A stretch of 46,003 bases of DNA. It comes from Deltaproteobacteria bacterium (lineage in GTDB: Bacteria > Myxococcota_A > Polyangia > JAAYKL01). Within the stretch, counting starts at the first letter, position 1. Each line of letters opens with the position of its first letter. Positions 1,098-18,157 of the stretch are shown in pieces. The stretch is taken from the NCBI GenBank assembly GCA_030621515.1, contig JAUXHN010000008.1, positions 1 through 46,003 of the forward strand. The letters run 5' to 3'. A program made the position numbers and the translations under genes. The notes below the pieces were generated by a model. That model was given only the letters and a program-made list of their open reading frames with translations. It searched no databases and was not told the origin of the DNA.

Positions 1098-1130
1098 TGA
1101 GACACTTGGTTGAGACAGTCTTGTGAGACA
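1098..1130. promoter_or_regulatory. Three direct repeats of TGAGACA, candidate enhancer for the sigma-54 activator
   Basis: TGAGACA occurs at 1098, 1111 and 1124, that is three copies in the same orientation exactly 13 bases apart. The last copy lies about 72 bases upstream of a -24/-12 promoter, a normal distance for a bacterial enhancer. The same half-site clusters at 11376-11427 and 16490-16508, also beside -24/-12 promoters. Binding by the activator at 1-1089 is an inference from proximity and co-occurrence. Confidence 0.7.
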
Positions 1131-1202
1131 GATGTCCCCCGATCCCGCGCAAACCTTTTCGGATCTTCGCTTCGGCTTTGCCGATCCGCACATCGAAAAA
1201 CA

Positions 1203-1218
1203 TGGCACGCCATTCGCA
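1203..1218 (+). promoter_or_regulatory. Sigma-54 (-24/-12) promoter of the desulfoferrodoxin operon
   Basis: The sequence TGGCACGCCATTCGCA has the invariant GG (1204-1205) and GC (1216-1217) separated by ten bases, with a perfect TGGCACG -24 block; the -12 block is TCGC rather than TTGC. It lies 53 bases before the GTG start of the first gene of the operon. Confidence 0.7.
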
Positions 1219-2430: not shown

Positions 2431-2476
2431 GGGAAAACGATAACTCAATCAAGATAGTCGAAAAATGAGGAGAACC

Positions 2477-3052
2477 ATGCCAAGTGTAAAAGGTACCCAG
2501 ACAGAGAAAAACCTGCTCACCGCGTTTGCGGGCGAGTCCCAGGCGCGCAACCGCTACACGTTCTTTGCCAGCAAGGCCAAAAAGGACGGCTACGTGCAGA
2601 TAGCGTCGATTTTTGCCGAGACCGCCGACCAGGAGAAGGAGCACGCCAAGCGGCTCTTCAAGTTCCTCGAGGGCGGCGAGTTGGAAATCACCGCGGGCTT
2701 TCCGGCCGGGGTTATCGGCACCACTTTCGAGAACCTGATAGAATCAGCGGCCGGGGAAAACTTCGAGCACACCGAGATGTATCCCGGATTTGCCAAGGTG
2801 GCCCGGGAGGAGGGCCTCGACGTCATAGCCGCAGTATTCGAAGCGATCGCCGTGGCCGAAAAACAGCATGAAAAACGCTACAAAGATCTCGCACAGAATA
2901 TCGAGGCGGGCCGGGTCTTCAAACGAGACGGCAAGGTATTCTGGATTTGTCGTAACTGCGGTTACCTGCACGAGGGAACCGAGGCGCCCGAAACCTGTCC
3001 GGCTTGTGTGCATCCCCAGGCTCACTTCGAGGTTCTGGGAGAGAACTGGTAA
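2477..3052 (+). CDS. rbr: Rubrerythrin (peroxidase, ferritin-like plus rubredoxin-like domain)
   Basis: I prefer the ATG at 2477, preceded by GAGGAGA, to the in-frame ATG at 2465. The 191-aa product is a classical rubrerythrin. Its diiron bundle has the AFAGESQARNRY, ADQEKEHAKR and AVAEKQHEKRY signatures. A C-terminal rubredoxin-like domain follows with two CxxC pairs (CRNC and CPAC). Rubrerythrins reduce hydrogen peroxide in the cytoplasm of anaerobes and take electrons from rubredoxin or flavoproteins. Following desulfoferrodoxin in the same operon, it would remove the peroxide that superoxide reductase makes. The gap from the previous gene is 46 bases and no terminator is visible. Confidence 0.96.
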   Translation: MPSVKGTQTEKNLLTAFAGESQARNRYTFFASKAKKDGYVQIASIFAETADQEKEHAKRLFKFLEGGELEITAGFPAGVIGTTFENLIESAAGENFEHTEMYPGFAKVAREEGLDVIAAVFEAIAVAEKQHEKRYKDLAQNIEAGRVFKRDGKVFWICRNCGYLHEGTEAPETCPACVHPQAHFEVLGENW

Positions 3053-3060
3053 AAAAGAAG

Positions 3061-4512
3061 ATGGAGATCTCGGCGAAAACGAAAATAAACGACCTTCTCA
3101 AGGCACACCCGTTCCTGGAGGATTTCCTCGTACAGTACAATCCGAAGTTCAAGCTACTGGGGAAAAGGGCGATGCGGGCCATAGTCGGACGAGTGGCCAA
3201 CCTGAAGCTGGTCGCCTCGATCGGCGATGTCGACCTCGCAACGTTCCTGGGTGATATTTCAAAGGAAATCGAGCGCAAGACAGGAAAGACGGTAGCCGTC
3301 GGCGATCTCGATCTGGATGACTCGTTCAGCAAAACTGAGCGCATGGCGTTGCTCAAGCAGGTCATCAAAGATCTTCATGACGGCGGCGACCTCGATGAAG
3401 CAAAGGAGAAGTTCGCCCTGGCGGTAGGGGACGTCAATACTTCCGAGATCGCGCAGATGGAGGAACAGTTGATCCGCGAAGGCCTGGCGGTAGAGGAGGT
3501 TCAGCGGCTCTGCGATGTGCACGTGGGAGCGTTCAGCCAGATGCTCGATGAGCACGACGATTTGAAGATGCCTTCGGGGCACCCGGTGCATACCTACATG
3601 GAGGACAACCGGCGCATAGAGACGCTATTGGACGAGTTGAACAAGCACGCTCGAAAAATCGAAAGCGACGAAGGCTTGATGGATGAAATCGGTCGCACCA
3701 TAGAAGCGCTTGGAGGCATCGATAACCACTATGCGCGAAAGGAAAACCAGCTCTTTCCACTTCTCGAGAAACACGGGGTAACCGCGCCGCCAAAAGTGAT
3801 GTGGGGGATTCACGATGAGATACGAGGCTCTCTGAAAAAAGTGCGTCAGGCCCTGGACAAGAGAGATGCGCAAGCGCTCCCCCAGGCTGCTGCCGAGTTA
3901 TCGCGCACTGCGGCCGAGATGATCTACAAGGAAGAGAAGGTGCTCTTCCCGCTGTCTTTTGAAACGTTGACCGAAAAGGATTGGCAGGAAGTAAGGCGCG
4001 GTGAGGACGAGCTTGGATATGCCTTCGCAAGACCGGGGAGCGACTGGCCGGAGACATCCGATGAGGCCGGTGAGGTCGTTCTTCCAGCCGGCGTCGGGTC
4101 GCTGCTCTCTCTCGATACAGGGGCGCTTTCACTGGAGCAGGTCAACCTGATGCTGACACACCTTCCGCTGGACATCTCTTTCGTCGATGAAAACGACGAG
4201 GTTCGTTACTACTCGGGAGGCGAGCGCCACTTTCCACGCAGCCCTGCAGTTATCGGGCGCAAGGTGCAAAACTGCCACCCGCCGGGGAGCGTACATATCG
4301 TTGAACGCATCTTGAACGAGTTCAAGGCAGGAAAAAAGAATACCGCCGAGTTCTGGATTCAGCTTCACGGAAAATTTCTGCACATCAGGTACTTTGCGCT
4401 GAGAGACACCGATGGCACCTATCGCGGTTGCCTGGAGGCAGGGCAAGACATCACTGAAATTCGCAGGCTCGAAGGCGAGCAACGCTTGCTAAACTGGGAC
4501 GAGAAAAACTAG
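3061..4512 (+). CDS. DUF1858-DUF438-hemerythrin-PAS protein, probable O2/NO sensor or binder
   Basis: The ATG at 3061 lies eight bases after the rubrerythrin stop, with AAGAAG just before it. The 483-aa protein is modular. An N-terminal DUF1858-like segment (about residues 1-65) is followed by a DUF438-like region (about 90-150). A hemerythrin HHE domain follows, with the ligand-rich motifs HPVHTYMEDN, NHYARKENQLFP, WGIHDEIRG and YKEEKVLFP. A C-terminal PAS-like domain (about 360-475) ends in EAGQDITEIRR. Hemerythrin binds O2 or NO at a diiron site and PAS domains sense redox state or ligands, so a sensing or scavenging role fits this stress operon. No output domain such as a kinase is present. 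It is the last gene of the operon. Confidence 0.9.
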   Translation: MEISAKTKINDLLKAHPFLEDFLVQYNPKFKLLGKRAMRAIVGRVANLKLVASIGDVDLATFLGDISKEIERKTGKTVAVGDLDLDDSFSKTERMALLKQVIKDLHDGGDLDEAKEKFALAVGDVNTSEIAQMEEQLIREGLAVEEVQRLCDVHVGAFSQMLDEHDDLKMPSGHPVHTYMEDNRRIETLLDELNKHARKIESDEGLMDEIGRTIEALGGIDNHYARKENQLFPLLEKHGVTAPPKVMWGIHDEIRGSLKKVRQALDKRDAQALPQAAAELSRTAAEMIYKEEKVLFPLSFETLTEKDWQEVRRGEDELGYAFARPGSDWPETSDEAGEVVLPAGVGSLLSLDTGALSLEQVNLMLTHLPLDISFVDENDEVRYYSGGERHFPRSPAVIGRKVQNCHPPGSVHIVERILNEFKAGKKNTAEFWIQLHGKFLHIRYFALRDTDGTYRGCLEAGQDITEIRRLEGEQRLLNWDEKN

Positions 4513-4641: not shown

Positions 4642-5757
4642 ATGAATGGGCAAACCAAAACGCTGGATAAGTTGCTTCCTCAAATCCGAGAGTTGATCAC
4701 CGCGGCGCGGAACGCAGCCGCGCGCACCGTAAATACACTTCAGGTGATCACGAATTTCGAGGTAGGGCGAATTATCGTTGAGCACGAGCAGGAAGGGGAA
4801 AAGAAGGCTCTCTACGGAAAAGCACTGATGAAGCAGCTTGCCATCTCTTTGACGGAGGAATTCGGCAAGGGATTTTCCAAGAGTAATCTCGAGTATATGC
4901 GCCGTTTCTATCTGGTGTACCGGGATCGAAGCCCTCAGATTGCCCAAACAGTGTTTGGGCAATTGGTCCAGTCCGGAAAAACCCAGACACCGTCTGGGCA
5001 ATCGGCCGCTATTCGGAAAACGCAGTCAGTGTCTGCGCAGTCAAAGTTACATTTCACCTTGAGCTGGTCGCACTACCTGTTTCTGATGGGGATCAAGGAT
5101 GAAGCAGAACGCAGCTTTTACGAAATCGAAGCAACGACCCAAGAATGGTCGCTGCGAGAGTTGCGACGGCAATTCGACAGCAGCCTCTATGAACGCCTGG
5201 CGCTGAGCCGAGACAAGGTCGCCATTCACGATCTCTCCGAGGAGGGGCAAATCGTCACCAAGCCAGAGCAGATCATGAAGGAACCCTACGTCCTGGAGTT
5301 TTTGGGGTTGCGCGAAGAGACGCGCTATTCCGAGCGAGAGCTGGAGACCGCGATCATCGACAAGCTGGAGCATTTCCTGTTGGAGTTGGGCAAGGGATTT
5401 TTGTTCGAAGCTCGCCAGAAGCGCTTCACCTTTGAGGAGGAGCATTTCTTCGTCGACTTGGTTTTCTATAACCGCCTGCTCAGCTGTTATGTTCTGATTG
5501 ATCTCAAAATTGGCGAGCTGACACATCAAGACCTCGGTCAGATGCAAATGTACGTGAATTATTATGATCGTTTCATGAAGCGCGATAACGAGCACCCAAC
5601 AGTAGGCATTATCCTGTGCCGAAAGAAAAAAGACGCCCTGGTTGAGATCACTCTCCCCGACAGCAACATCTATGCTTCCGAGTACCAGCTCTACCTACCC
5701 ACCAAAGAAGAACTACGGCAAAAGCTGATCGACTGGGCCGAGGAGGTGGAGAGATGA
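4642..5757 (+). CDS. DUF1016 (YhcG-type) PDDEXK-like nuclease-family protein
   Basis: The 371-aa product has the N-terminal DUF1016 helical domain (EVGRIIVEHEQ, FGKGFSKSNLEYMRRFY, LSWSHY) and the C-terminal nuclease-like fold, with FVDLVFYNR and LIDLKIG as the D...(D/E)xK catalytic core. YhcG proteins are found as single genes or near restriction, toxin or defence loci, and their cellular role is unclear. Here the gene stands alone, between a sigma-54 stress operon and a convergent cytochrome operon, with no methylase or helicase partner. A variable linker (about residues 100-133) is made of a tandem 13-aa repeat, described separately. It may have been acquired horizontally. The 129 bases upstream hold no recognisable promoter. 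Confidence 0.9.
   Translation: MNGQTKTLDKLLPQIRELITAARNAAARTVNTLQVITNFEVGRIIVEHEQEGEKKALYGKALMKQLAISLTEEFGKGFSKSNLEYMRRFYLVYRDRSPQIAQTVFGQLVQSGKTQTPSGQSAAIRKTQSVSAQSKLHFTLSWSHYLFLMGIKDEAERSFYEIEATTQEWSLRELRRQFDSSLYERLALSRDKVAIHDLSEEGQIVTKPEQIMKEPYVLEFLGLREETRYSERELETAIIDKLEHFLLELGKGFLFEARQKRFTFEEEHFFVDLVFYNRLLSCYVLIDLKIGELTHQDLGQMQMYVNYYDRFMKRDNEHPTVGIILCRKKKDALVEITLPDSNIYASEYQLYLPTKEELRQKLIDWAEEVER
4939..5037. repeat. Tandem 39-bp palindromic repeat inside the DUF1016 gene
   Basis: Three units start at 4943, 4982 and 5021, 39 bases apart, each able to form a hairpin. The first is a perfect 12-bp inverted repeat with a one-base centre (4939-4963); the second has arms CCCAGAC/GTCTGGG; the third has CGCAG/CTGCG arms. 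They encode 13-aa units beginning QTVFGQ, QTPSGQ and QSVSAQ, in the linker between the two domains of the protein. Confidence 0.75.
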
Positions 5758-5805: not shown

Positions 5806-7224
5806 CTATGGCCGGCCGGTGAGGTGCTTCACGTCATCCCACGCTTCGGGCAGCGGCTTGATCTTGGCGCTGGTGAGATTTTTTCCGCCCGAACCCGGAA
5901 CGTAGACCGGTGATCCGTGGCCATTTTTCTCGACCTCTTCCGCCAGTCTGATGAAGTGCTGGTAAGTTTTCTTGAGTTCGTAGAACCCGTGCCACCAGGA
6001 GTAATCCGGTCCCATCATGGCCGAGCCCATTCGCGCTCGCCGTCCTTCGTGGTGCCAGTACTCATAGTATACCCACTCGATCTCCTCGTCGAAGACCGGC
6101 CACTTTGTCAGCAAGTCCTTTTCATAAAGCTCATCCATGCGCGTCTTGACGGGCTTGAAGTAGTTTTCGTTGTAGTTCTCGATAGCCTTGTCATAGCGCG
6201 CCAGATAGTTTTCAGACCAGCGGCGTGAGTGGCACTGGCGGCAGACGGTGATCATGTTTTCTCTTTCCTTGTCGCCGTCCCTGTCCTTGTTCAGAATCGT
6301 CAGGGGAGCCTGGCTCTCCCACTTGAGCCGGCCGGAAAGCTCGTGCGATGTGGCGAGCGGGCCGATGCCGGACATGTGACAGACTGCGCATGTCGGCGCG
6401 GTGAAGTCCGATCCCGGCTCCCAGATATCCGGCGCCACGTCAAACTTCCACTCGCTGTTCTCGGCCAGGTAACGCTTGCCGTGTTTGGACTCGAAGTAAA
6501 TCTCGTTCTGCGGATGATCCGGTCCCATGTGGCATTGACCGCAAGTCTCGGGCTTGCGCGCCTCGGCGATGGAGAAGCGGTGCGTGGTGTGGCAAGTAGT
6601 GCACGTGCCGAGAGAACCATCCGGGTTCTTGCGTCCGCAACCCTCGTTGGGCCAGTTGAGATCAGTCAGCTTGCCGTCCGAGATGTCCGAGCCGTGGCAA
6701 CCGTAGCAGCCAACGGCCCGTTCCACATCGTTTGTCATACCCTTGAGCCAGGGGTCTTGTATCTTGTCTGCAGTGATATGCCACGTGCGAGCATGTTTCG
6801 ATTTCTTGAATTGATCGGCCTCTTGAGGATGACACCTCGCGCAGTCTTCAGGGGTGACGATGGGAGTGATCTTCACGTCGTCATACTTCTCGGTTCCCGG
6901 GCAGTCGATGGCGTCCTTGTCAGTGATCAGGGCCTTGTGGCAGTCGAGGCAAGTGACATTGGACCGGGCGTGCAGGGAGTGAGACCAGTCACGCACTTTG
7001 CCCTGTTCTTCCTTGGCGTGGCAAGCGATGCACTCGCGCTCCAGGTCGGTGAGGCCGCGCACCACCTTGATCTCCTTTGCAAGTTGAGGCGCAGCTCCGA
7101 GTGCGGATCCAGCGGTAGCCCTGGGTTGTTTTTTTACTTCTTTTTCAAACGCTATGAGCAGCCCAACGACCACCGTGGCGGCGACGAATCCGGCCAGAGT
7201 CATGAGGAACAGTTTACTTTTCAT
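5806..7224 (-). CDS. Octahaem cytochrome c of the hydroxylamine oxidoreductase-like family
   Basis: The 472-aa protein has an N-terminal hydrophobic segment (about residues 4-26) for export or anchoring and eight CxxCH haem sites in order: CIACH, CLDCH, CARCH, CYGCH, CTTCH, CGQCH, CAVCH and CRQCH. The region after haem 8, ending in GSAMMGPDYSWWHGFYELKK, is typical of HAO-like octahaem proteins. It overlaps by 11 bases the gene for an NrfH-like quinol-oxidising cytochrome. By analogy with the HAO-like/NapC-like pairs of Campylobacterota, I infer a periplasmic reductase of nitrite and/or hydroxylamine rather than an oxidase. Whether the tyrosine that cross-links the P460 haem in true HAO is present cannot be judged without an alignment. 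It is the last gene of a seven-gene minus-strand array. Confidence 0.88.
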   Translation of the reverse strand: MKSKLFLMTLAGFVAATVVVGLLIAFEKEVKKQPRATAGSALGAAPQLAKEIKVVRGLTDLERECIACHAKEEQGKVRDWSHSLHARSNVTCLDCHKALITDKDAIDCPGTEKYDDVKITPIVTPEDCARCHPQEADQFKKSKHARTWHITADKIQDPWLKGMTNDVERAVGCYGCHGSDISDGKLTDLNWPNEGCGRKNPDGSLGTCTTCHTTHRFSIAEARKPETCGQCHMGPDHPQNEIYFESKHGKRYLAENSEWKFDVAPDIWEPGSDFTAPTCAVCHMSGIGPLATSHELSGRLKWESQAPLTILNKDRDGDKERENMITVCRQCHSRRWSENYLARYDKAIENYNENYFKPVKTRMDELYEKDLLTKWPVFDEEIEWVYYEYWHHEGRRARMGSAMMGPDYSWWHGFYELKKTYQHFIRLAEEVEKNGHGSPVYVPGSGGKNLTSAKIKPLPEAWDDVKHLTGRP

Positions 7225-7792
7225 TTTTCATCTCCCTTGAAGCGGCCGCCCCTCTTTCGTCAAATAGATAACGATGGAACTCGCCGTGGAACTCGTCCTT
7301 GTGGCAATCTACGCACTTCCTTTTTCCATCCATGCGCTGGTACGCCCGGTGGGCGATAATCATTTTGATCGACCCGCCACTCGGAGTGAGATTGTCGTGG
7401 CATCTTCTGCACGCGCTGTCGTCAGAGTGCTCGCGGGCGCTCTCTTTTAGCGCCTCCCAATCCATCTCATATGGATCCGCCTCCCCAAAAAGATGGGCCC
7501 AGATGTCTGTCATGCCGTCACGGGTTTTGGTGCGAATCATGGGAAGAATGTCGGGTTCGATGTGGCAGTCCGAGCACTTCGCTACTACGCCGTGTTCGTT
7601 TTGATAGTGTGGGGACTTCATCCAGCCCTGCTCGGCGACGAGCTGCATCTCATGACAGGAGATGCAAAACTCCGTGGTCGACGTGAGAACTATTGTTTGA
7701 CCAAAGGCCATAAGCCCCAGCGCCCCGCCAAGCGCTCCAAGGGCGAGAAGCCTGAACGTCTTTGTCTTCAGAAAGGAAAGTACCTTGCCCAA
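7214..7792 (-). CDS. NrfH/NapC-family tetrahaem cytochrome c, membrane quinol dehydrogenase
   Basis: The 192-aa protein has one N-terminal membrane anchor (about residues 12-35) and four haem motifs (CISCH, CSDCH, CRRCH, CVDCH). The typical NrfH/NapC stretch SPHYQNEHGVVAKCSDCH lies between haems 1 and 2. Such proteins take electrons from menaquinol and pass them to a periplasmic multihaem partner, here the octahaem protein whose gene overlaps its 3' end. The start is a TTG directly after the cysE stop codon, with a GGAGG about ten bases upstream, so translation is coupled. The last residues (MKNEK) are encoded in the overlap. Confidence 0.93.
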   Translation of the reverse strand: MGKVLSFLKTKTFRLLALGALGGALGLMAFGQTIVLTSTTEFCISCHEMQLVAEQGWMKSPHYQNEHGVVAKCSDCHIEPDILPMIRTKTRDGMTDIWAHLFGEADPYEMDWEALKESAREHSDDSACRRCHDNLTPSGGSIKMIIAHRAYQRMDGKRKCVDCHKDEFHGEFHRYLFDERGAAASREMKNEK

Positions 7793-8710
7793 TTATATTC
7801 CGCCTCCACGCTCGAATCGATCCTGCCGGACCTGGGCCTGAGTAATGCGGCTTTCAGGAGACACGCTTCGGGTCAGCCACACGTTGCCCCCGATCACCGA
7901 TCCACGACCGATGGTCACCCTTCCGAGAATCGTCGCGCCCGAGTATATAACGACATCGTCTTCCACAACAGGATGGCGCCGGATGCCCTTTATCGGGTTG
8001 CCGTTCTCGTCGAGTGGCAGGCTCTTGGCGCCCAGCGTGACGCCCTGGTAGATACGCACGCGGTCGCCGATCTCGCAGGTCTCGCCGATTACCACTCCGG
8101 TGCCGTGATCGATGAAGAACTTCTCGCCGATGGTGGCCCCCGGATGGATATCGATTCCGGTGATGCTGTGGGCGTGCTCGGTGATGATCCGCGGGATGAG
8201 CGGCACCTCCAGGAGATACAGCTCGTGGGCCAGTCGATAGTTCGCGATCGCCTGGATGCCCGGATAGCAGAAGATCGCTTCACCGGCGCTTGTGGCCGCC
8301 GGGTCGCCCTCGTAGGCCGCCGCGACGTCGGTGGAAAGGAGAGCGCGGATGCGCGGCAAGCGGGAGAGAAATGTATGCGTGATGCTCATGGACTCGTCTT
8401 CGCATTCGGTGCAGCGGTAAGGAGTGTCCTGCGGGCAGACAAAGCACAGACCCCGCCGAATCTGTTCCTGCAGAGTCCGGAGCACCCGGTCGAGGGTCGC
8501 CCCGAGGTGGAACTGCAGGCTCTGCGCGCTCAGTTCGGATGTTCCGAAGTACCCGGGAAAGAGGACCGATCGGAGATCTTCCACCATGCCGATGAGCACG
8601 TTCCTCGAAGGCAGGTCTGCTCTTCGGTCTCCCCGCAAAAGCCATCGGGACTCACCGTTGCACTGGCTGCAGAGTTCGGCGACAACTCCCTTCAGATCGA
8701 TTTCACTCAT
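7793..8710 (-). CDS. cysE: Serine O-acetyltransferase (EpsC/CysE type)
   Basis: The 305-aa enzyme makes O-acetylserine from serine and acetyl-CoA, the substrate of the cysteine synthase encoded just upstream. The C-terminal half shows left-handed beta-helix hexapeptide repeats ([22 protein letters not shown] and onward), including the catalytic DHGTG and the [18 protein letters not shown] stretch. The long N-terminal helical domain matches the longer form of the family. A CxxC/CxxC-like segment ([16 protein letters not shown]) in the N-terminal half is unusual and might bind metal. The ATG at 8710 overlaps the cysK stop by eight bases. Confidence 0.93.
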
Positions 8711-9638
8711 CACCGTCCTCGAATAGCCATGTGGAGAGATAGCGCTCGCCCGTGTCCGGTACGATCGCGACGATCATCTTTCCCTCGTTTTGGGGTCGCC
8801 TCGCGAGCTCGAGCGCGGCCCAGACATTTGCTCCGGACGAGATACCGGCGAGGATGCCCTCTTCCCTGGCGAGCCGGCGGGCCATCTTGCCGGCGTCCTC
8901 ATGTCGCACCTTGATGATCTCGTCCAGGATGTCCGTGTTCAACACCTCGGGCACAAATCCCGCGCCGATGCCCTGGATCTTGTGGGGGCCGGGCTGTCCG
9001 CCGGAGAGCACCGGCGATTCGACCGGCTCCACCGCGACCGCCCGGAAATCGGGCTTGCGCTCCTTGAGCGCCTCGGCCACCCCGGTGATCGTTCCTCCGG
9101 TTCCCACACCGGCGACCAGGATGTCCACATTGCCATCGGTGTCCGCCCAGATCTCCTGCGCAGTGGTTCGGCGATGGACCTCGGGATTGGCAGGGTTAGA
9201 AAACTGCTGTGGCATTATGTAAGAGTCGTTTGTCTCGACGAGCTCCGTGGCCTTGTCGATCGCCCCCTTCATGCCCTGCGCGCCCGGGGTGAGCACGATC
9301 TTCGCGCCGAATGCCACAAGGAGCTTGCGGCGTTCGATGCTCATCGTGTCCGGCATGGTCAGAACGAGCCGGTATCCCCGGGCCGCGCAGATGAAAGCGA
9401 GGGCGATTCCAGTGTTGCCGCTGGTCGGCTCCACGATCACTGTATCTTCCCCGATGAGCCCGTCGCGCTCGGCCGCCTCGATCATTGCCAGACCGATTCT
9501 GTCCTTGACACTCGAACACGGATTGAATGACTCAACTTTTACAAGAACGTCTGCCTTGAGCTCGCCTGTCACGCGGTTCAAACGCAAGATAGGTGTCCGG
9601 CCCACGAGCTCGGTAATACTGCCTGCGATCTGCCCCAT
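8703..9638 (-). CDS. cysK: Cysteine synthase A (O-acetylserine sulfhydrylase)
   Basis: This 311-aa PLP enzyme makes cysteine from O-acetylserine and sulfide. The PLP lysine lies in the SVKDR motif (about residue 45), the substrate loop is PTSGNTG, and the phosphate-binding loop is [17 protein letters not shown] is present near the C-terminus. Length and motifs are complete. It overlaps cysE, so both cysteine-forming steps are co-expressed. The unusual feature is the context: these two genes sit inside an array with a haem lipoprotein upstream and an NrfH-like/octahaem pair downstream. Extra cysteine could serve haem attachment and Fe-S repair, but this is inference. Confidence 0.97.
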
Positions 9639-9701: not shown

Positions 9702-10112
9702 TCAATTGTTTTCCGCGCCTTCCTCGATCCATTGCTTGAGAGCCTGGATCCGATCCTCCGTGAGGGCCGGGAATATTTTCGGCGGCATGTTGGGCACAGC
9801 CGTCTTCTCTACTGACGTTATTATCTTGCTGCCCTCGGGATCGCCCGGCTTGATGAAACCGGCGGTCTTGCCGCCCTTCACCACGTCCTCGTAGGTGAGG
9901 ATGCTCAGATCTCCGTCTGCGTCCTCCCCGTGACAGCGAATGCAGTGATCCATCAAGATGGGATGGACGGTCTTCGAGAACGAGATCTTTCCCTCGTCCG
10001 TCTTGTTCACCTCGATAGGATCGGTGCTCCCCCCGGCCGAGGCGCAACCCGCCAATGCAAGCGACAGCGCCGACAGCGCCGTCAACGCGATAATCATGAT
10101 CGTTTTTTTCAC
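9702..10112 (-). CDS. Monohaem cytochrome c lipoprotein
   Basis: The 136-aa product starts at a GTG with AAGGAGG six bases upstream, preferred over the longer frame from 10142. A lipoprotein signal peptide ends in the lipobox LAGC, followed by a serine/glycine linker. There is a single CIRCH haem site and the downstream methionine of NMPPKIFP is a plausible sixth ligand. The C-terminal WIEEGAENN pattern resembles the small cytochrome domain of planctomycete type (haem followed by LxxWIxxGA). It is probably anchored in a membrane facing the periplasm and could exchange electrons with the NrfH/octahaem pair of the same gene array. Confidence 0.87.
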   Translation of the reverse strand: MKKTIMIIALTALSALSLALAGCASAGGSTDPIEVNKTDEGKISFSKTVHPILMDHCIRCHGEDADGDLSILTYEDVVKGGKTAGFIKPGDPEGSKIITSVEKTAVPNMPPKIFPALTEDRIQALKQWIEEGAENN

Positions 10113-10151
10113 GCCAGACCTCCTTGTAGTTGAATTGAGCATGGATCATTT

Positions 10152-10781
10152 CTACTTTGCAAAACGGAACGAACCATCGAGGGTGCCGCCTGCGACGAAG
10201 CCGTCATGGTTGTCCGGGTCGTCGACCGAAAACAGAGGCGTCACGTAGGGGCTGACGCCGAGCTGGAAATTGAAGGTTTTGCCCGGCCGTTTGAAGTCGA
10301 GACCAAAGTAGCCTCCAATCCGAGGCCCCAGTGCCCAGAAAGACGGTCCCCGCTCTTCACCGGAGGGTCCCGATTCGTAATCCGGTCCGTAGTGCAGAAC
10401 GATTCCGAGGCTCGGGCCCACAATGATATCGACGTCCCCTTCTTGTGGATGCCTGAAGAGCAGTGCCACTTCGGGCTCGAACTGCAACATCTTGAAAGCC
10501 GCAGCAAAGAGAATCGGTCTCATGAGCGGCACATTTACCAGGACGCTGATTTGTTCGGTGACTCCGATTTCGGTGAAAAACGAGATCTCCAGCGCCATCC
10601 CCCCCTTTGCTCCCGGAGGGCTTGCCACGCACATCCTCACGTCGTCGTAGCGCGCGCCTGCCTGTACCTTGATACCGAAGATTACCTGATCGGCGTACGA
10701 TTGCTCTTGAGCGTTGCTGTTGCCCGTGAAAGCGACCATGACCAGCATCACGACAAAGAGCATCCTTCCGGCTTTGGCCAT
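10152..10781 (-). CDS. Exported, probably outer-membrane beta-barrel protein
   Basis: The 209-aa product has a clear signal peptide ending near NSNAQEQS. The rest is rich in alternating hydrophobic and glycine-containing stretches (GIKVQAGARY, VDIIVGPSLGIVLHYG, LGPRIGGYFGLDF), typical of a small outer-membrane beta-barrel, and it ends in SFRFAK with an aromatic near the C-terminus. I do not recognise a named family. It lies 11 bases after the thioesterase gene and 39 bases before the haem lipoprotein gene, so it is probably co-transcribed with both. Role unknown. Confidence 0.75.
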   Translation of the reverse strand: MAKAGRMLFVVMLVMVAFTGNSNAQEQSYADQVIFGIKVQAGARYDDVRMCVASPPGAKGGMALEISFFTEIGVTEQISVLVNVPLMRPILFAAAFKMLQFEPEVALLFRHPQEGDVDIIVGPSLGIVLHYGPDYESGPSGEERGPSFWALGPRIGGYFGLDFKRPGKTFNFQLGVSPYVTPLFSVDDPDNHDGFVAGGTLDGSFRFAK

Positions 10782-10792
10782 CGCATTGCCTC

Positions 10793-11254
10793 TTATCTGT
10801 GTTCCAGCATTCTCTGGTGGATTTTCAGGGTCTCATCCCAATCTTTTTTCTCTTTATCTGTGCTCGGCTCGAAACTCGGTATCCGCCGGGGTTTGCTGTC
10901 GGCGTCGATCGCCACCATGAACACAGTCCCGACGCAACAGGGGCGGCGATTCCATTGGGTCTTGTCCAGGGCAAAGACCCGCACCTTTACCCCACAGGTG
11001 TGAGTGGAGACGTAGACCACCTGCGCTTCCACTTCAGCGATTTCACCCTTCTTGACGGGAGCCCGAAACTCGAGCGTATCCAGAGAGGCGGTGACGAAAT
11101 TGCAGCGTGCAAAACGCGCGGCAGCCAGGCCTGCCGCCCTGTCGACCAGAGCCAGGATCTTGCCGCCGAAAGCTGTTCCGTACGGATTGGTGTCACCCGG
11201 AAAAATTTCTTCATAGATCGAGATGGGCGATGTATCGAGATTGTTATTGTTCAT
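10793..11254 (-). CDS. Acyl-CoA thioesterase, hotdog fold (YciA-like)
   Basis: The 153-aa protein shows the single hotdog domain of the YciA/acyl-CoA hydrolase group: the early YGTAFGGKILALVDRAAGLAAAR helix region, followed by the strands TASLDTLEFRAPVKKGEIAEVEAQV. It would hydrolyse acyl-CoA thioesters in the cytoplasm; the chain-length preference cannot be told. It is the first gene of the seven-gene minus-strand array and lies about 57 bases downstream of a minus-strand -24/-12 promoter. The link of a thioesterase with cytochromes and cysteine synthesis is not obvious. Confidence 0.9.
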   Translation of the reverse strand: MNNNNLDTSPISIYEEIFPGDTNPYGTAFGGKILALVDRAAGLAAARFARCNFVTASLDTLEFRAPVKKGEIAEVEAQVVYVSTHTCGVKVRVFALDKTQWNRRPCCVGTVFMVAIDADSKPRRIPSFEPSTDKEKKDWDETLKIHQRMLEHR

Positions 11255-11310
11255 TTCGATTCCCTTTTAAAGCCAGGCGAAGACAGTTCTGATACAATTG
11301 TCAGGCATTT

Positions 11311-11325
11311 GCATACAACATGCCA
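11311..11325 (-). promoter_or_regulatory. Sigma-54 (-24/-12) promoter reading into the thioesterase-to-HAO gene array
   Basis: On the minus strand the sequence reads TGGCATGTTGTATGC, with GG (complement of 11323-11324) and GC (complement of 11311-11312) ten bases apart. It deviates from TGGCACG-N4-TTGC at two positions. It faces the thioesterase start at 11254 and shares the operator cluster at 11376-11427 with the divergent promoter at 11500. Confidence 0.55.
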
Positions 11326-11375
11326 GGATGGGTCTTCAGAATACTCAAGACGTTCCCATACATTACTACCTATCA

Positions 11376-11427
11376 TGTCTCGGGTACCGGAAAAACGAGA
11401 CAATGCAATGAGACAGACCATGTCTCA
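11376..11427. promoter_or_regulatory. Four TGAGACA/CGAGACA half-sites, candidate shared enhancer
   Basis: Half-sites are TGTCTCG (11376-11382), CGAGACA (11396-11402), TGAGACA (11409-11415) and TGTCTCA (11421-11427). The outer-left pair forms a perfect inverted repeat with a 13-base spacer, and the right pair a perfect inverted repeat with a 5-base spacer. The two middle sites are direct repeats 13 bases apart, as at 1098-1130. The cluster lies between two divergent -24/-12 promoters. Confidence 0.72.
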
Positions 11428-11499
11428 ACAAGTGGATGTACAAGCCGATTCGCTGCGACAGAACGTTGAAATGACTGATAGACACAAGTGACAGGGCAG

Positions 11500-11515
11500 T
11501 GGCACGCTGATTGCG
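11500..11515 (+). promoter_or_regulatory. Sigma-54 (-24/-12) promoter of the ferritin-like/IorAB operon
   Basis: TGGCACG, four bases (CTGA), then TTGCG: a perfect match to the sigma-54 consensus, with GG at 11501-11502 and GC at 11513-11514. It lies about 50 bases before the ATG at 11565 and about 73 bases after the TGAGACA cluster. Confidence 0.85.
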
Positions 11516-11564
11516 TAAAGGCGAACCGTCCTGAAACCGAGCCTGAACGTAACAGGGGTGCACC

Positions 11565-12080
11565 ATGTCGAAAGAACCGATAGAGAAAGTGGCCGATGGC
11601 CTGTTGAAGGCGATACGGGCCGAGCGAGAAGGTCAGCATTTCTACCTGATGGCTGCTCGGACGTGCCAGGATCCCAGGGGACAGGAGGTCTTCGAGCAAC
11701 TGGCCGCAGAAGAGGCCGGCCACGCAGAGTTTCTGCAAAAGCAATACCGGTCCGTGCTCGACACCGGCAGGCCCGACAAGAACCTCAAGCTCGGCAACCA
11801 GATGGATCTCTCGGGGCCGAATCCGATCTTCTCCGATCAAATCCGGTCCCGTCTGAAGGATGCCCATTTCGAGATGACCGCGTTGTCGGTCGGCGCGCAG
11901 CTCGAGCTCGACGCCCAGAAGTATTACTCGGAAAGGGCGGCCGAATCGGAGGATATTGTTATCAAGGTGTTCTATTCGGAGCTCGCCGACTGGGAGGCGG
12001 GCCACTACCGTGCCCTGCTCACCCAACAAGAATCGCTCAAGGAGGATTACTGGTCGGGCGGCGGGTTCGCTCCTTTCTAG
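11565..12080 (+). CDS. Ferritin-like (rubrerythrin-superfamily) diiron protein
   Basis: The 171-aa product has four helices with diiron ligand patterns AEREGQHFYL, AAEEAGHAEFL, QLELDAQKYY and LADWEAGHYRALL, and ends in a glycine/aromatic tail (YWSGGGFAPF). There is no rubredoxin-like domain. The start lies downstream of an excellent sigma-54 promoter. The IorA gene begins 20 bases downstream, so this iron protein is probably co-expressed with a 2-oxoacid oxidoreductase and an NqrF-like flavoprotein. A peroxidase or iron-storage-like role is inferred from the family. Confidence 0.88.
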   Translation: MSKEPIEKVADGLLKAIRAEREGQHFYLMAARTCQDPRGQEVFEQLAAEEAGHAEFLQKQYRSVLDTGRPDKNLKLGNQMDLSGPNPIFSDQIRSRLKDAHFEMTALSVGAQLELDAQKYYSERAAESEDIVIKVFYSELADWEAGHYRALLTQQESLKEDYWSGGGFAPF

Positions 12081-12099
12081 CTGCAAAGAGAGTGTGAAA

Positions 12100-13992
12100 A
12101 TGGCCAAGTTAAAGGACATGTTGGTGAAGCGAGAATCATGGTCTGACCTGATCATGGGCAACTACGCGGTCGCCAGGGCGATGATCGACACCGGGACCAG
12201 GGTGATCACCACCTTCCCCGGGTCTCCGACGCCCGAGATCGCGGCGGCCCTCGATTCGGTCGACAGGGACAAGCGCGATTACTACTTCGAGTACTCCACC
12301 AACGAAAAGGTGGCCCTGGAGATTGCGGCGGGAGCTTCGCTGAACGGGCATCTGTCCACTGTCTTCTTCAAGTCGGTGGGGCTGAACGTGGCGTCTGACT
12401 CCCTCATACAGCTGGCGCTGATGGAGCTTGTCGGCGGCATGGTGATCATTCTCGGCGATGACCCGGGAGCGAACTCGTCCCAGAACGAACAGGACAACCG
12501 ATGGTTTGCCAGGATGTCGTACATCCCGATGCTGGAGCCGGCCAATCCCCAGGAGGCATACGACATGTACCGGGAGGCGGTCAGGCTTTCAAAGGAGCGG
12601 CGGATCCCGATCTTTCTGCGTTTGACGACCCATGTGTGCCACGCGCGGGAAGTCGTGAAATTCAACGGCATCGAGACCGGCGCCCCGGACTGGACCCCCA
12701 GGTTCGACGCTGCCGCCGGGCCTTACGTCCCCATCGTCAGCACCGTCTTTCCGCTCAAGCGAAAGGCTCTGGCCAAGCTGGCTGACTTCGAGGAGCTGGG
12801 CAACGAGTGCAAGCTGAACTTCGTTGTCGCGCCAAACGGCTCGAAGCCCATCGACGGGAAGAGGCTCGGCGTGATCTCCTCGGCGCTTGTGGCCATGTCG
12901 GTGCTGGAGAATCTCGAAGAATCGAAGGCATCCGTGGATCTGCTCAAGCTCGGGATGACCTACCCCCTTCCTCGCAAGATGATCACCGACTTTCTGGCCG
13001 ACCGCGACGAGGTGATGGTTCTCGAGGAGCTGGATCAGGTGCTGGAGAACGAGATCAAGGTGGCCGCATGGGATGCCGGCGCCGATTGCAAGATCCTCTC
13101 CCGGAAGGACCGCGAGGACTTCATGGGAGAGCTGGGGCCCAGAAGGACGATGAAGATCCTGTCCGATGTCTGGCCATCGATTTTTGATGCCCCCGCCGAG
13201 ATTGTCCCCTCGAAGGAGATCTCTGTGCGACTTCCCCAGATGTGCCCCGGCTGCGGTCACAGATCGGCCTTCCACGCCATTCGCAAGGCCCTGGAGGACG
13301 ACGTCATAACCGTGGCCGACATCGGCTGCCACTCCCTGGGCTTCATGCCTCCGTACAACATGGGAGAGGTGCTGTTCTCCATGGGACACGGCGTCTCCAC
13401 CGCCTCGGGGTTGTCTATTGGAAACGACACGAGGAAGGTGCTCACCTTCATCGGCGACTCCACCCTGATCCACGCGGGGCTGCCGGGAATCGTCAACGCC
13501 GCCAACCACGATCACAACATCACGCTGGTGTTGATGGACAACGGCACCACGGCCATGACCGGTCACCAGCCCCGGTTCGGGTCCGGCGAGGTCGGGGACA
13601 AGATCCCCTTCGTCCCGTTGCTGGAGGCCCTCGGGGTGAAGTTCATCAGGGAAACGGACACCTACCAGCAGGCGACGCTCACACAACACATCAGGGACGC
13701 CAACGCCCACAAGGGGTTCGCCCTGGTGATCGCGCGGCACCCGTGCATGCTCAAGTTCACGCGCAAGCAGCGCAAGGATATGCCGGACTTGAAGATGCCG
13801 AACGTGCGGGTCGACCAGGAGAAGTGCGAGCGAATTTACGAGTGCGTCGCCGAATTCGGTTGCCCGTCGTTCCAGAAAAACGAGGACGGCTCGGTGACGG
13901 TCAGCGAGGAGCTTTGCATAGGAGATGGTTCTTGCCTGCAGACCTGCCCGGTTCAGGCACTGTGGCGTCCAAAGCCCGGAGGTGACAAATGA
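12100..13992 (+). CDS. iorA: Indolepyruvate:ferredoxin oxidoreductase, alpha subunit
   Basis: The ATG at 12100 follows GAGAG and fits the family start; the frame open upstream is not used. The 630-aa subunit has the pyrimidine-binding domain (GNYAVARAMIDTG near the start), the thiamine-diphosphate domain (CPGCGHRSAFHAIRK, GCHSLGF, FIGDSTLIHAGLPG, DNGTTAMTGHQP) and C-terminal Fe-S motifs. IorAB oxidises arylpyruvates to aryl-acetyl-CoA and reduces ferredoxin. Oddly, both Fe-S motifs lack the second of the usual four cysteines: the first reads CERIYEC...CP and the second CIGDGSCLQTCP, with Asp in place of Cys. This may give a modified cluster. The stop overlaps the iorB start (ATGA). Confidence 0.95.
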   Translation: MAKLKDMLVKRESWSDLIMGNYAVARAMIDTGTRVITTFPGSPTPEIAAALDSVDRDKRDYYFEYSTNEKVALEIAAGASLNGHLSTVFFKSVGLNVASDSLIQLALMELVGGMVIILGDDPGANSSQNEQDNRWFARMSYIPMLEPANPQEAYDMYREAVRLSKERRIPIFLRLTTHVCHAREVVKFNGIETGAPDWTPRFDAAAGPYVPIVSTVFPLKRKALAKLADFEELGNECKLNFVVAPNGSKPIDGKRLGVISSALVAMSVLENLEESKASVDLLKLGMTYPLPRKMITDFLADRDEVMVLEELDQVLENEIKVAAWDAGADCKILSRKDREDFMGELGPRRTMKILSDVWPSIFDAPAEIVPSKEISVRLPQMCPGCGHRSAFHAIRKALEDDVITVADIGCHSLGFMPPYNMGEVLFSMGHGVSTASGLSIGNDTRKVLTFIGDSTLIHAGLPGIVNAANHDHNITLVLMDNGTTAMTGHQPRFGSGEVGDKIPFVPLLEALGVKFIRETDTYQQATLTQHIRDANAHKGFALVIARHPCMLKFTRKQRKDMPDLKMPNVRVDQEKCERIYECVAEFGCPSFQKNEDGSVTVSEELCIGDGSCLQTCPVQALWRPKPGGDK

Positions 13993-14576
13993 GTTCGTTC
14001 AACATTTATATGTGCGGAGTGGGGGGCCAGGGCATCGGCATGCTCTCGGAGGTCCTGTCTCGGGCGTGCCTCGAAGCCGGTCACAATATCATGGGGTGCG
14101 ACACCCACGGGCTGGCTCAGCGCGGGGGAATTGTTGTCTCCCACCTGAGACTTGGGGATGGGGTGCGGACCCCGCGGGTGCCCGACGGAAGCGCCGATCT
14201 GGTGATCGCCCTCGAGCGCCTCGAAGCCCTCCGGGCCGCCGATGCCATGCTCGCAAAGAGCGGCACCGTGATCTACTACGACACGATCTATCAACCCATC
14301 CACGTTCGGATGGGAAAGACGAGCTACCCCGAGGCGGACGCGCTGGAAGAAACGGTGAAGACCAGGGGCGGCAAGGTGGAGCGCGTTCAACTCGCCGACA
14401 TCGATGATCCGAGGATGCAGAACGTGGCTCTTCTGGGACGATTGGCGTCGACGGGTGTTATCGAGGGTGTGAGCGCTCGGGTAGTCGAGCAGGCCCTGCG
14501 CGATGCATTGCCAGCAAAAGCCCTCGCCGCAAACCTGGCCGTCTTCGAACAGGCCGCCGAGAAAACCGCCCCTTAA
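13989..14576 (+). CDS. iorB: Indolepyruvate oxidoreductase, beta (gamma-type) subunit
   Basis: The 195-aa protein starts with the characteristic GVGGQGIGMLSEVLSRA motif and continues with CDTHGLAQRGGIVVSHLRLG, the signature of the gamma-type domain of 2-oxoacid:ferredoxin oxidoreductases. It forms the enzyme with IorA, whose stop codon overlaps its start by four bases. The length is normal for the family. Confidence 0.95.
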   Translation: MSSFNIYMCGVGGQGIGMLSEVLSRACLEAGHNIMGCDTHGLAQRGGIVVSHLRLGDGVRTPRVPDGSADLVIALERLEALRAADAMLAKSGTVIYYDTIYQPIHVRMGKTSYPEADALEETVKTRGGKVERVQLADIDDPRMQNVALLGRLASTGVIEGVSARVVEQALRDALPAKALAANLAVFEQAAEKTAP

Positions 14577-14600: not shown

Positions 14601-15737
14601 ATGAAAAACGACAAGGTAAGAATCGAGATAGCCGGTCATCCCCATTACAGTTTCGACGTGGCCGGGGGTGGGTCTCTATTTCAGGCGCTGTCCGCGCAAG
14701 ATATCTCCATTCCCTCTGCCTGCGGCGGGCATGGATACTGCGGTTTGTGCAGGGTCAAGGTGCTGCAAGGCGGGGGTGAAATAAACCCTGGCGAGCAGGC
14801 GCATATCATCGGCGATCTTGTTCGGGAGGGGATGCGCCTGTCGTGCCAGGTCAGGGTCGAGCAGAACATAAAAATCGAGTTGCCGCCCGAGGTGTTCAGG
14901 GCGAAGAAGTTACGTTGCAAGGTGCGTTCTATTCGCAACGTGGCCACCTTCATCAAGGAGGTCGTGCTCGATCTTCCCGACAACGAAGAGCTGGAGTTCC
15001 GCGCAGGTAGTTATGTTCAACTCGAGTGCCCGCCCCACACCGTTCATTATCGGGACTTCGACATCGACGAAAAGCATCGGGGCGAATGGGACAGGCGCGA
15101 GCTCTTACACCATGTCTCGACCTGTACCCGGACGGTCATGCGCACATACTCCCTGGCCAACTACCCGGGCGAGCAGGGAATCATCATGCTCAACGTGCGC
15201 ATCGCTGCTCCGCCGCGTGAAGCCCTGTACGCCCGCCCGGGTATCGCCTCGTCCTATATCTTCAGCCTCAAGCCTGGTGACGAGGTCACCGTTCTCGGCG
15301 CTTTTGGAAACTTCTTTGCCGCGGATACGGATGCGGAGATGTGCTTTGTGGCAGGGGGAGCGGGGATGGCGCCCATGCGTTCGCACATATTCGATCAGTT
15401 CAGACGGTTGAAGACGACGAGGAAGGTGACTTTCTGGTACGGCGCGAGGAGTCTCTCGGATGCGTTCTACGTGGATGAATTCGATGGTCTGGCGCGTGAG
15501 CATGACAACTTCGATTGGACGCTGGCGCTCTCTGCTTCCGTTCGCGAGGACAAATGGACAGGCGAAACGGGATTGATCCACCGCGTCCTCCATGACAATT
15601 ATCTGAAGAACCACCCGGCGCCGGAAGACATTGAGTACTACCTTTGCGGACCGCCCGCCATGAACTCTGCGGTCACGAAGATGCTGGTGAATCTGGGTGT
15701 CGAAAAGAAGAACATCATGTTCGACGATTTCAGTTAG
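14601..15737 (+). CDS. Soluble NqrF-like reductase: 2Fe-2S ferredoxin plus FAD/NAD domain
   Basis: The 378-aa protein has a plant-type 2Fe-2S domain (CGGHGYCGLC with a later SCQV cysteine, residues about 40-90). A ferredoxin-NADP-reductase-like module follows: the FAD motif RTYSLAN, the nucleotide-binding start GGAGMAPMRS, and CGPPAMN before the acidic DDFS end. It resembles NqrF of the sodium-pumping NADH:quinone reductase but lacks the N-terminal membrane helix, so it is probably soluble, and no other nqr gene is present. In an operon with IorAB and a ferritin-like protein it could link NAD(H) with ferredoxin or feed electrons to diiron proteins. This is inference; a mono-oxygenase reductase is an alternative reading. 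Confidence 0.9.
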   Translation: MKNDKVRIEIAGHPHYSFDVAGGGSLFQALSAQDISIPSACGGHGYCGLCRVKVLQGGGEINPGEQAHIIGDLVREGMRLSCQVRVEQNIKIELPPEVFRAKKLRCKVRSIRNVATFIKEVVLDLPDNEELEFRAGSYVQLECPPHTVHYRDFDIDEKHRGEWDRRELLHHVSTCTRTVMRTYSLANYPGEQGIIMLNVRIAAPPREALYARPGIASSYIFSLKPGDEVTVLGAFGNFFAADTDAEMCFVAGGAGMAPMRSHIFDQFRRLKTTRKVTFWYGARSLSDAFYVDEFDGLAREHDNFDWTLALSASVREDKWTGETGLIHRVLHDNYLKNHPAPEDIEYYLCGPPAMNSAVTKMLVNLGVEKKNIMFDDFS

Positions 15738-15861: not shown

Positions 15862-16371
15862 TTATCCCGTCTCGACATCGAATTCGGGGATATCGAACCA
15901 GTAGCCGCTACCCTTGATCGCATCGAGCTCTGCGTTGACCAGCGCCAGGTGTCCGGATTCGATCTCGACAAAACGCTCGAAGAAGCTTTTTGCCTCGTCG
16001 GGAAGCTTCTCCACCAGCCCGGCGTAGAACCGGCTGGTCTCGGACTCGATCGCTGCGGCCGTTTCCAGGGCTCCGAGCTCGGCAGTCGCAGTTTCTTTCA
16101 CGTCGCCGCTCGCCAGTTTGCCGACTTCCTTTTCGATCCAGTCGAGGGAGGGTAGCGTAGTTTCGAGATCTTCCGCCGAGAGCTTGTTGCCTTCCTTCCA
16201 GTCCTTGAGCTTCTTCTCCAGGTACTTGACGTGATCGTTTTCCTCGCTGGCCATGAGTCCGAATACCCGGCGGGCGACGGGATCTTTCGCGGCGTCCTGG
16301 GATTCCACGTAGTGCTCGCGAATTCTGATCTCATACTCGATTGCCGTTATTATCGCTTCTTCGATTTGCAT
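15862..16371 (-). CDS. Ferritin-like (rubrerythrin-superfamily) diiron protein
   Basis: The 169-aa protein has helix signatures AIEYEIRIREHY, ASEENDHVKYLE, AIESETSRFYAGL and VEIESGHLALVN, matching the four diiron ligand helices. Its C-terminal tail (GYWFDIPEFDVETG) resembles the tail of the protein encoded divergently at 16622, suggesting paralogues. No rubredoxin-like domain is present. It would be driven by the minus-strand -24/-12 promoter at 16414. Family role: peroxide or O2 reduction, or iron handling; the substrate is not known. Confidence 0.87.
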   Translation of the reverse strand: MQIEEAIITAIEYEIRIREHYVESQDAAKDPVARRVFGLMASEENDHVKYLEKKLKDWKEGNKLSAEDLETTLPSLDWIEKEVGKLASGDVKETATAELGALETAAAIESETSRFYAGLVEKLPDEAKSFFERFVEIESGHLALVNAELDAIKGSGYWFDIPEFDVETG

Positions 16372-16413: not shown

Positions 16414-16429
16414 AGCAAATCCCAAGCCA
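16414..16429 (-). promoter_or_regulatory. Sigma-54 (-24/-12) promoter, minus strand
   Basis: On the minus strand: TGGCTTGGGATTTGC, with GG (complement of 16427-16428) and GC (complement of 16415-16416) ten bases apart and an intact TTGC -12 block; the -24 block deviates at two bases. It faces the ferritin-like gene that starts at 16371, about 43 bases away. Confidence 0.55.
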
Positions 16430-16489
16430 ACCGCGGAACGCCCCCCGTTGGCTATTTTCGTCAGGAATGTATCATTGTATTCTCTGTTT

Positions 16490-16508
16490 TGAGACAGTTG
16501 GTGAGACA
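16490..16508. promoter_or_regulatory. Paired TGAGACA repeats between divergent sigma-54 promoters
   Basis: TGAGACA occurs at 16490-16496 and 16502-16508 as direct repeats 12 bases apart, joined by GTTGG. The string GTGAGACACTT at 16501 is also present at 1097. The pair lies roughly 60 bases from the minus-strand promoter and about 29 bases from the plus-strand promoter. Confidence 0.65.
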
Positions 16509-16536
16509 CTTTTGTGGAGATCCAGGGAATAATGGG

Positions 16537-16552
16537 TGGCACGGTGTTTGCT
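16537..16552 (+). promoter_or_regulatory. Sigma-54 (-24/-12) promoter, plus strand
   Basis: TGGCACG, four bases (GTGT), then TTGCT: a perfect consensus match, with GG at 16538-16539 and GC at 16550-16551. It lies about 70 bases upstream of the ATG at 16622. Confidence 0.85.
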
Positions 16553-16621: not shown

Positions 16622-17137
16622 ATGGATAGAATATCGTCTATAGAGTTGGCTATAACAAACGAGCACACGGAAATGGAATACTATCTGGGGCAAGCGCGTC
16701 GGTCCAAAAACCCGGTGGCGAAGTTGCTCTTCGAAACTCTGGCAGCGGACGAAAAGGAGCATATGGTGCGCATCGAGGGGTTGCATCGCAAGCTCACTGC
16801 AGACGGCTCATGGCCGGACGACCTACCGATAGAGGTGGCGGGCACCGAAATCCTCGGGCGGGTCAACGAGCTCATGGAAGAAAAGGACACCTCTGCCTCG
16901 CACGACGATGATGATATTGCGGCTCTGGAGAAAGCCGCGAAGGGGGAGGCGGATGGATCCAAGTTTTACAAGGAGTTGGCGCAGGTTTGCGATAACCCGA
17001 AGGAGAAAATATTCTTCGAGTTCCTCGCGAAAATCGAGCGCGAGCACCTGCTCTCCATACAGGATTCCCTCTTCTATTTGAGGGACCCGGAGGCCTGGTT
17101 CGAGGAAAAAGGTCGTTCCAGTTTCGACGGTGGTTAG
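16622..17137 (+). CDS. Ferritin-like (rubrerythrin-superfamily) diiron protein
   Basis: The ATG at 16622 is preceded by AAGGAGG, which decides the start over the longer frame. The 171-aa protein carries AITNEHTEMEYYL, AADEKEHMVRIEG, KGEADGSKFYKEL and AKIEREHLLSIQD, the four ligand helices of the family. The tail (DPEAWFEEKGRSSFDGG) is aromatic and acidic like that of the divergent paralogue. The next gene, for an FMN enzyme, starts inside its last codons, so the two are co-translated. Confidence 0.88.
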   Translation: MDRISSIELAITNEHTEMEYYLGQARRSKNPVAKLLFETLAADEKEHMVRIEGLHRKLTADGSWPDDLPIEVAGTEILGRVNELMEEKDTSASHDDDDIAALEKAAKGEADGSKFYKELAQVCDNPKEKIFFEFLAKIEREHLLSIQDSLFYLRDPEAWFEEKGRSSFDGG

Positions 17138-18104: not shown

Positions 18105-18141
18105 ACTCGATTTTAATTGGGGTGGCGCTCATCTGATGTTT

Positions 18142-18157
18142 TGGCACACGTGTTGCA
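18142..18157 (+). promoter_or_regulatory. Sigma-54 (-24/-12) promoter of the rubredoxin gene
   Basis: TGGCACA, CGTG, then TTGCA: one base off the consensus, with GG at 18143-18144 and GC at 18155-18156 ten bases apart. It lies about 69 bases before the rubredoxin ATG. Confidence 0.75.

Follow-up and report, generated by a model that had tools for sequence, protein, structure and literature searches.

A probable sigma-54 oxidative-stress regulon with heptamer boxes shared by divergent promoters in an uncultured Myxococcota bacterium

In anaerobes, control of the rubrerythrin and superoxide-reductase defences is usually attributed to PerR and similar repressors. In delta-proteobacteria, the PerR regulons include rubrerythrin and peroxidase genes, namely rbr, ahpC and roo (PMC545781). 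Divergent sigma-54-dependent operons are known from orp1/orp2 of Desulfovibrio vulgaris Hildenborough, a system that involves the enhancer-binding protein (EBP) DVU2106, with sites around -88 and -131, as well as IHF (PMC3897727). Other one-component EBP regulons of D. vulgaris (DVU3142/ohc, DVU0569/ald and others) have EBP genes co-localised with their sigma-54 targets; the main text of the respective study contains neither a rubrerythrin/desulfoferrodoxin regulon nor a TGAGACA motif (PMC4641369). No sigma-54 regulon with a TGAGACA box was found in the open-licence literature.

The region described here (11255-11564) is part of a 46,003-nt window, the whole stretch of DNA that was analysed, from an uncultured Myxococcota bacterium; among named genomes, the nearest ones are metagenome assemblies of Deltaproteobacteria/Myxococcota (CSMAG_220, CSMAG_306 and MO_167.B37). 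With a probability of roughly three in four, this region is a node of a sigma-54 oxygen/peroxide (redox) defence regulon that is run, via clusters of YGAGACA boxes, by the EBP encoded at 1-1089. This would probably be a previously undescribed sigma-54 oxidative-stress regulon, with the activator encoded 10 kb away.

Half-sites and divergent promoters at 11255-11564

Direct reading and pattern scans identify four exact TGTCTCR/YGAGACA half-sites packed into 52 bp between two outward-facing sigma-54 promoters: half-site 1 at 11376-11382 (minus strand; TGTCTCG on the plus and CGAGACA on the minus strand), half-site 2 at 11396-11402 (plus strand, CGAGACA), half-site 3 at 11409-11415 (plus strand, TGAGACA, 13 bp after half-site 2) and half-site 4 at 11421-11427 (minus strand; TGTCTCA on the plus strand). 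With N13 separating half-sites 1 and 2 and N5 separating half-sites 3 and 4, they form the two inverted repeats, TGTCTCG-N13-CGAGACA and TGAGACA-N5-TGTCTCA, of the original prediction, which are present exactly as described there, the observation being even stronger than reported. The exact TGAGACA-N5-TGTCTCA, without mismatches, occurs once in the 4.64-Mb genome; half-site pairs within 32 bp number 6 against 0.08 expected per 46 kb; and neither four exact half-sites within 53 bp nor three half-sites in such a cluster are found in 12 Mb of first-order Markov sequence with the same dinucleotide make-up. That the half-sites and promoter matches are coincidental might be argued from the promoters, considering how common sigma-54-like sequences with two mismatches are in the window (10 against an expected 6.5). 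Nevertheless, the cluster statistics, the uniqueness in the whole genome and, as described below, the conservation across species and the recurrence at functionally related genes leave this explanation a minute probability, so that chance is effectively refuted.

The sigma-54 consensus used here includes GG at -24 and GC at -12 with 10 bp between them and is close to TGGCACG-N4-TTGCW. The minus-strand promoter CTGGCATGTTGTATGCA (11326-11310), predicted to serve a seven-gene array, matches 10 of the 12 consensus bases, and the plus-strand promoter GTGGCACGCTGATTGCG (11499-11515), predicted to serve the ferritin-like/ior/nqrF operon, matches 11 of the 12, both with the GG-N10-GC arrangement. The two predicted -24/-12 elements are accordingly both there, although "perfect", the term originally applied to the plus-strand one, is slightly too strong because the last base of GTGGCACGCTGATTGCG is G rather than A or T. 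Starts deduced from the -12 elements fall near 11299 (minus) and 11526 (plus), with the boxes about 77-128 bp upstream of the former and about 99-150 bp upstream of the latter; relative to these deduced starts, the conserved sites lie about 80-150 bp upstream, as in EBP regulons. Purine runs resembling ribosome-binding sites precede the first gene on either side, and neither a sigma-70-like promoter nor a terminator was found in this intergenic region. The genome encodes RpoN (Sigma54_DBD, 214.7 bits).

The gene sets named in the original prediction are correct. The minus-strand array starts with a hotdog thioesterase (10793-11254), which is followed by a secreted or outer-membrane-like protein of no family (10152-10781), a small cytochrome c (9702-10142; PSCyt1, CxxCH), cysteine synthase CysK (8703-9638; TIGR01139 above the cut-off), serine O-acetyltransferase CysE/EpsC (7793-8713; EpsC above the cut-off), a NapC/NirT-family cytochrome (7214-7792) and an HAO-like multihaem cytochrome c (5806-7224; Multi-haem_cyto). 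The plus-strand operon encodes a ferritin-like protein of the rubrerythrin clan (11565-12080), an IorA-like 2-oxoacid:ferredoxin oxidoreductase (12097-13992; IOR_alpha, 531.6 bits, below the cut-off of 650.9), an IorB-like subunit (13989-14576) and an NqrF-like NADH/2Fe-2S reductase (14601-15737; nqrF above the cut-off).

Further box regions and conservation within the genus

The half-site scan reveals two additional box clusters that had not been reported, so that the window contains at least three regions combining boxes with sigma-54 promoters. In the first of these, three direct TGAGACA boxes (1098-1130, plus strand; starts at 1098, 1111 and 1124, a 13-bp pitch) begin 9 bp past the stop codon of the EBP gene and precede the promoter ATGGCACGCCATTCGCA (1202-1218, plus strand; TGGCACGCCATTCGCA at 1203), which scores 16.5 of 19.7 and is conserved in three species. 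The operon behind it encodes, on the plus strand, a conserved 68-aa protein without a Pfam match (1271-1477), desulfoferrodoxin, i.e., superoxide reductase (1559-1945; Desulfoferrod_N and Desulfoferrodox above the cut-off), a rubrerythrin/ferritin-like protein (1942-2430; Pfam), a rubrerythrin with a rubredoxin-like domain (2465-3052) and a DUF438/hemerythrin/PAS protein with an uncertain start codon (3004-4512). The 68-aa protein is of the type DExxCGxxYxxLRDxAYxLxxLxxxE, which is also encoded by the first gene after the boxes in four other genomes (G003, G005, G012 and G013) and has a homologue in G040. Between the hemerythrin-PAS and HAO-like genes, there is a gene for a YhcG/DUF1016 PDDEXK nuclease (4642-5757) that looks like an insertion because its two neighbours are directly adjacent in the same-genus genome G001.

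In the other region, two direct TGAGACA boxes (16490-16508, plus strand; starts at 16490 and 16502, a 12-bp pitch) are located between the promoter GTGGCACGGTGTTTGCT (16536-16552, plus strand; score 18.7 of 19.7) and a divergent one, TTGGCTTGGGATTTGCT (16414-16430, minus strand), each facing a ferritin-like (rubrerythrin) gene recognised by Pfam (16622-17137, plus strand, and 15862-16371, minus strand). These boxes are closer to their plus-strand promoter than the range of about 80-150 bp. The pattern TGAGACA-N(4-34)-TGAGACA has three matches in the 4.64-Mb genome, all of them in the window, and the reversed control has none. A further sigma-54-like promoter, TTGGCACACGTGTTGCA (18141-18157), upstream of a rubredoxin-like ORF starting at about 18226, is kept in G002 and has no exact TGAGACA box, whereas boxes do occur at the rubredoxin operons of G003 and G007.

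Gene order and all three box regions are retained in two genomes of the same genus (G001 and G002). Among the three species, the minus-strand promoter (11310-11326) is the best conserved element of the reported region, with 17 of 17 columns invariant, compared with 16 of 17 for the plus-strand promoter, 7 of 7 for each of half-sites 2, 3 and 4, 4 of 7 for half-site 1, and 59% of the remaining intergenic columns. Sharing of one half-site cluster by two divergent sigma-54 promoters, as originally proposed, is thus supported: against a drifting intergenic background, both promoters and half-sites 2-4 are kept in all three species. In G002, the pitch of half-sites 2 and 3 is 14 bp rather than the 13 bp of the window.

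Half-site 1 is present in G001 and is replaced by TGCCCCA in G002, which accordingly has no N13 palindrome; within the genus, the N5 palindrome is kept. Direct repeats without a palindrome make up the other two box regions of the window, and the inverted repeat, which had been taken to be the operator unit, was abandoned in this role once the direct repeats had turned up and G002 was seen to lack the left half-site. Because G002 lacks the N13 palindrome and has the 14-bp pitch, the unit is taken to be the heptamer; the basic unit looks like a YGAGACA box, mostly arranged in direct repeats at a pitch of 12-14 bp. When 42 boxes, chosen by their heptamer and taken from clusters that are mostly beside sigma-54 promoters, are aligned, no clear conservation is seen outside the seven bases, apart from echoes of neighbouring boxes.

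These patterns also bear on the idea that the boxes control one divergent promoter only, probably the plus-strand one, with transcription of the minus-strand array starting elsewhere. Although the minus-strand promoter is the weaker match and cysteine synthesis genes can be expected to need basal expression, it is precisely this promoter that is invariant in the three species, the region at 16490-16508 and its relative in G003 (L108) are likewise divergent, and the intergenic region yielded no sigma-70-like promoter; control of a single promoter is, accordingly, quite improbable.

The candidate activator and boxes in other genera

The EBP gene at 1-1089 (plus strand), the candidate cognate activator and likewise missing from the original prediction, has lost its 5' end at the contig start and encodes a one-component sigma-54 EBP with an AAA+ sigma-54 activation domain (PF00158), including the ESELFGHVRGAFTGA loop, and an HTH domain (PF02954). 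The orthologue in G002 (L068:7635-9110) is full-length, with 491 aa, a PAS-AAA-HTH architecture and no receiver domain. In G001 (L066 1-1900), a TAG interrupts the EBP frame, and what remains of the EBP gene is separated from the boxes by a gene for an AhpC/thioredoxin-like protein with its own sigma-54-like promoter; the activator of G001 may be damaged or the assembly faulty. The PAS domain contains conserved cysteines that would suit redox sensing. In the tree, the EBP groups with orthologues from box-bearing genera, and its recognition helix, GVGRATLYRF/Y, is kept across this orthologue clade and differs in paralogues. The orthologues of G003, G034 and G040 (L080, L084 and L179) have an N-terminal low-molecular-weight phosphatase/arsenate-reductase-like domain fused to PAS-AAA-HTH; Pfam LMWPc is confirmed for the G040 protein only, and the G002 orthologue lacks this domain.

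Among the NCBIfam models listed, none is matched by the EBP above its curated cut-off. The match to PrdR reaches 389.1 bits (cut-off 795), and NorR, although among the better matches, reaches 347.8 bits (cut-off 476); the sensor consists of PAS domains only, without the GAF domain of NorR. These results are relevant to the suggestion that the regulon senses nitrosative stress (NO or hydroxylamine), similarly to NorR, with the HAO-like and NapC/NirT proteins involved in detoxification and the rubrerythrin/ferritin-like proteins being accessory. The presence of both cytochrome genes in the minus-strand array, the hemerythrin domain protein of the first operon and the NorR match itself are all compatible with this suggestion. 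Nevertheless, the score and sensor domain are not those of NorR, and the targets that recur from genus to genus are superoxide reductase, rubrerythrin and peroxiredoxin, so that a NorR-like function appears improbable. The signal may still partly be other than O2 or peroxide, as the NapC/NirT and HAO-like pair would fit a response to nitrosative stress as well.

In other genera of the family, 12 of the 29 clusters that contain TGAGACA (both hand counts from the cluster table) have, within 170 bp, an outward sigma-54 site scoring 12 or more, compared with 2.9% of random positions; several box pairs lack such a site. The genes downstream of the boxes encode rubredoxin-rubrerythrin (G007 and G003), 2-cysteine peroxiredoxin (G005, G013 and G003), a divergent pair of ferritin-like proteins (G003, L108) and a ferritin-like protein (G007). 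In three species of one genus, the box operon consists of the same small ORF followed by genes for rubrerythrin, a ferritin-like protein and a 2-oxoacid oxidoreductase, a predicted operon that parallels the ferritin-Ior operon of the window. Additional box targets, with a less obvious relation, are pyridoxamine-oxidase-like, START-like and aldehyde-dehydrogenase-like genes. The genes of G006 and G009 that are related to the ferritin-like gene have no boxes next to them. Outside the family, the degenerate box pattern is unreliable because G028 has an excess of CGAGACA pairs in the form of ordinary tandem repeats, and G023 and G031 give high control counts. The YGAGACA pairs located close to the EBP of G026 and G034 were discounted as support because they lie inside coding sequence, in an fpg/mutM-like gene and, for one pair, in the EBP reading frame itself.

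Because the genome encompasses more than 20 genes with sigma-54 activation domains, the cognate activator has to be inferred; gene adjacency and conservation of the recognition helix suggest that it is likely the EBP at 1-1089. Boxes directly adjoin the EBP gene in the window as well as in G002 and G009. The G009 gene overlaps at its end with three half-sites, after which come a -24/-12 element that matches less well and a gene for a ferredoxin-like protein. The best independent test of the predicted association between EBP and boxes is G040, from another family of the phylum, which was located through the EBP sequence alone: its EBP gene is oriented divergently from an operon that comprises the homologue of the small ORF and a ferritin-like gene, and the DNA between the two contains TGTCTCA, TGAGACA and the sigma-54 promoter TGGCATGAGTATTGCT. 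In G034, thiol peroxidase and desulfoferrodoxin genes are located within a few kb of the EBP gene. Alternatively, the boxes and promoters are real but bound by a different regulator (another EBP, a repressor or a co-activator), with the EBP at 1-1089 a mere neighbour. The many other sigma-54 activators of the genome leave room for such a regulator; direct repeats are unlike the usual palindromic EBP site; and EBP and boxes are imperfectly matched across genomes, G013 having boxes and no EBP match at the threshold used, and G011, G026 and G034 having the EBP without box pairs near sigma-54 promoters (only the coding-sequence pairs in the latter two). Considering the adjacency, the arrangement in G040, the helix conserved throughout the EBP clade, and the presence of the EBP in most family genomes with TGAGACA pairs, a different regulator is unlikely.

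The proposed regulon and described systems

The boxes and promoters, their recurrence and conservation, and the gene content can be combined into a model of a small oxygen-defence regulon, belonging to an anaerobic-type Myxococcota lineage, in which EBP binding, activation by this binding, an oxidative or redox signal and the joint response of both promoters are predicted. Upon a redox signal, the PAS-AAA-Fis EBP would bind clusters of YGAGACA boxes upstream of -24/-12 promoters, in the usual range for such activators, assemble as an AAA+ oligomer and, at the -24/-12 elements, remodel the sigma-54 polymerase. The cluster at 11376-11427 would put both divergent promoters within reach of the EBP, and for this reason both are proposed to be switched on together. 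The same EBP would also turn on the superoxide reductase/rubrerythrin operon (through the boxes at 1098-1130) and the divergent ferritin-like pair (through those at 16490-16508), so that the cysteine/multihaem-cytochrome array and the ferritin-Ior-NqrF operon would be co-induced with superoxide reductase and rubrerythrins. A more far-reaching scenario, to be given somewhat less than even odds, is that in this lineage a redox-sensing PAS EBP with a cysteine motif (GxDC...GLC...C) replaced control of the PerR/OxyR type, coupling cysteine synthesis, periplasmic multihaem cytochromes and 2-oxoacid:ferredoxin oxidoreductase to oxygen defence through tandem same-orientation heptamers (2-4, with a pitch of mostly 12-14 bp) instead of dyads; because tandem heptamers would take the place of dyads, one small box set could serve two divergent promoters.

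If the model of a sigma-54 oxygen-defence regulon is true, an easily searched 7-base box yields a hypothesis for an all-or-none oxygen-defence switch in anaerobic Myxococcota, an orphan EBP family gains a signal class, and the oxygen-response set takes in cysteine synthesis, HAO-like cytochromes, an Ior-type oxidoreductase and the conserved 68-aa protein.

Altogether, the predicted system resembles orp1/orp2 in having two divergent sigma-54 operons, EBP sites in the shared intergenic region and the EBP encoded nearby (PMC3897727), but the DVU2106 sites are palindromic, whereas the boxes of the window are mostly direct heptamer repeats, and orp1/orp2 specify a cell-division-linked complex in contrast to the oxygen-defence genes targeted here. 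The sigma-54 promoter downstream of the EBP gene at 1-1218 has a counterpart in the DVU0569 system (PMC4641369). The target genes are of the same class as those of PerR (PMC545781), which, however, is a Fur-family repressor with other palindromes, unlike the sigma-54 promoters and predicted activator of the window. NorR, which responds to nitric oxide and acts with sigma-54, is similarly a one-component EBP for defence against reactive molecules, but the EBP encoded in the window does not reach the NorR cut-off and contains a PAS domain. There are known precedents both for EBP sites shared by divergent sigma-54 operons and for one-component EBPs adjoining their targets; the features of this system that appear unusual are the direct-repeat operator and the set of targets.
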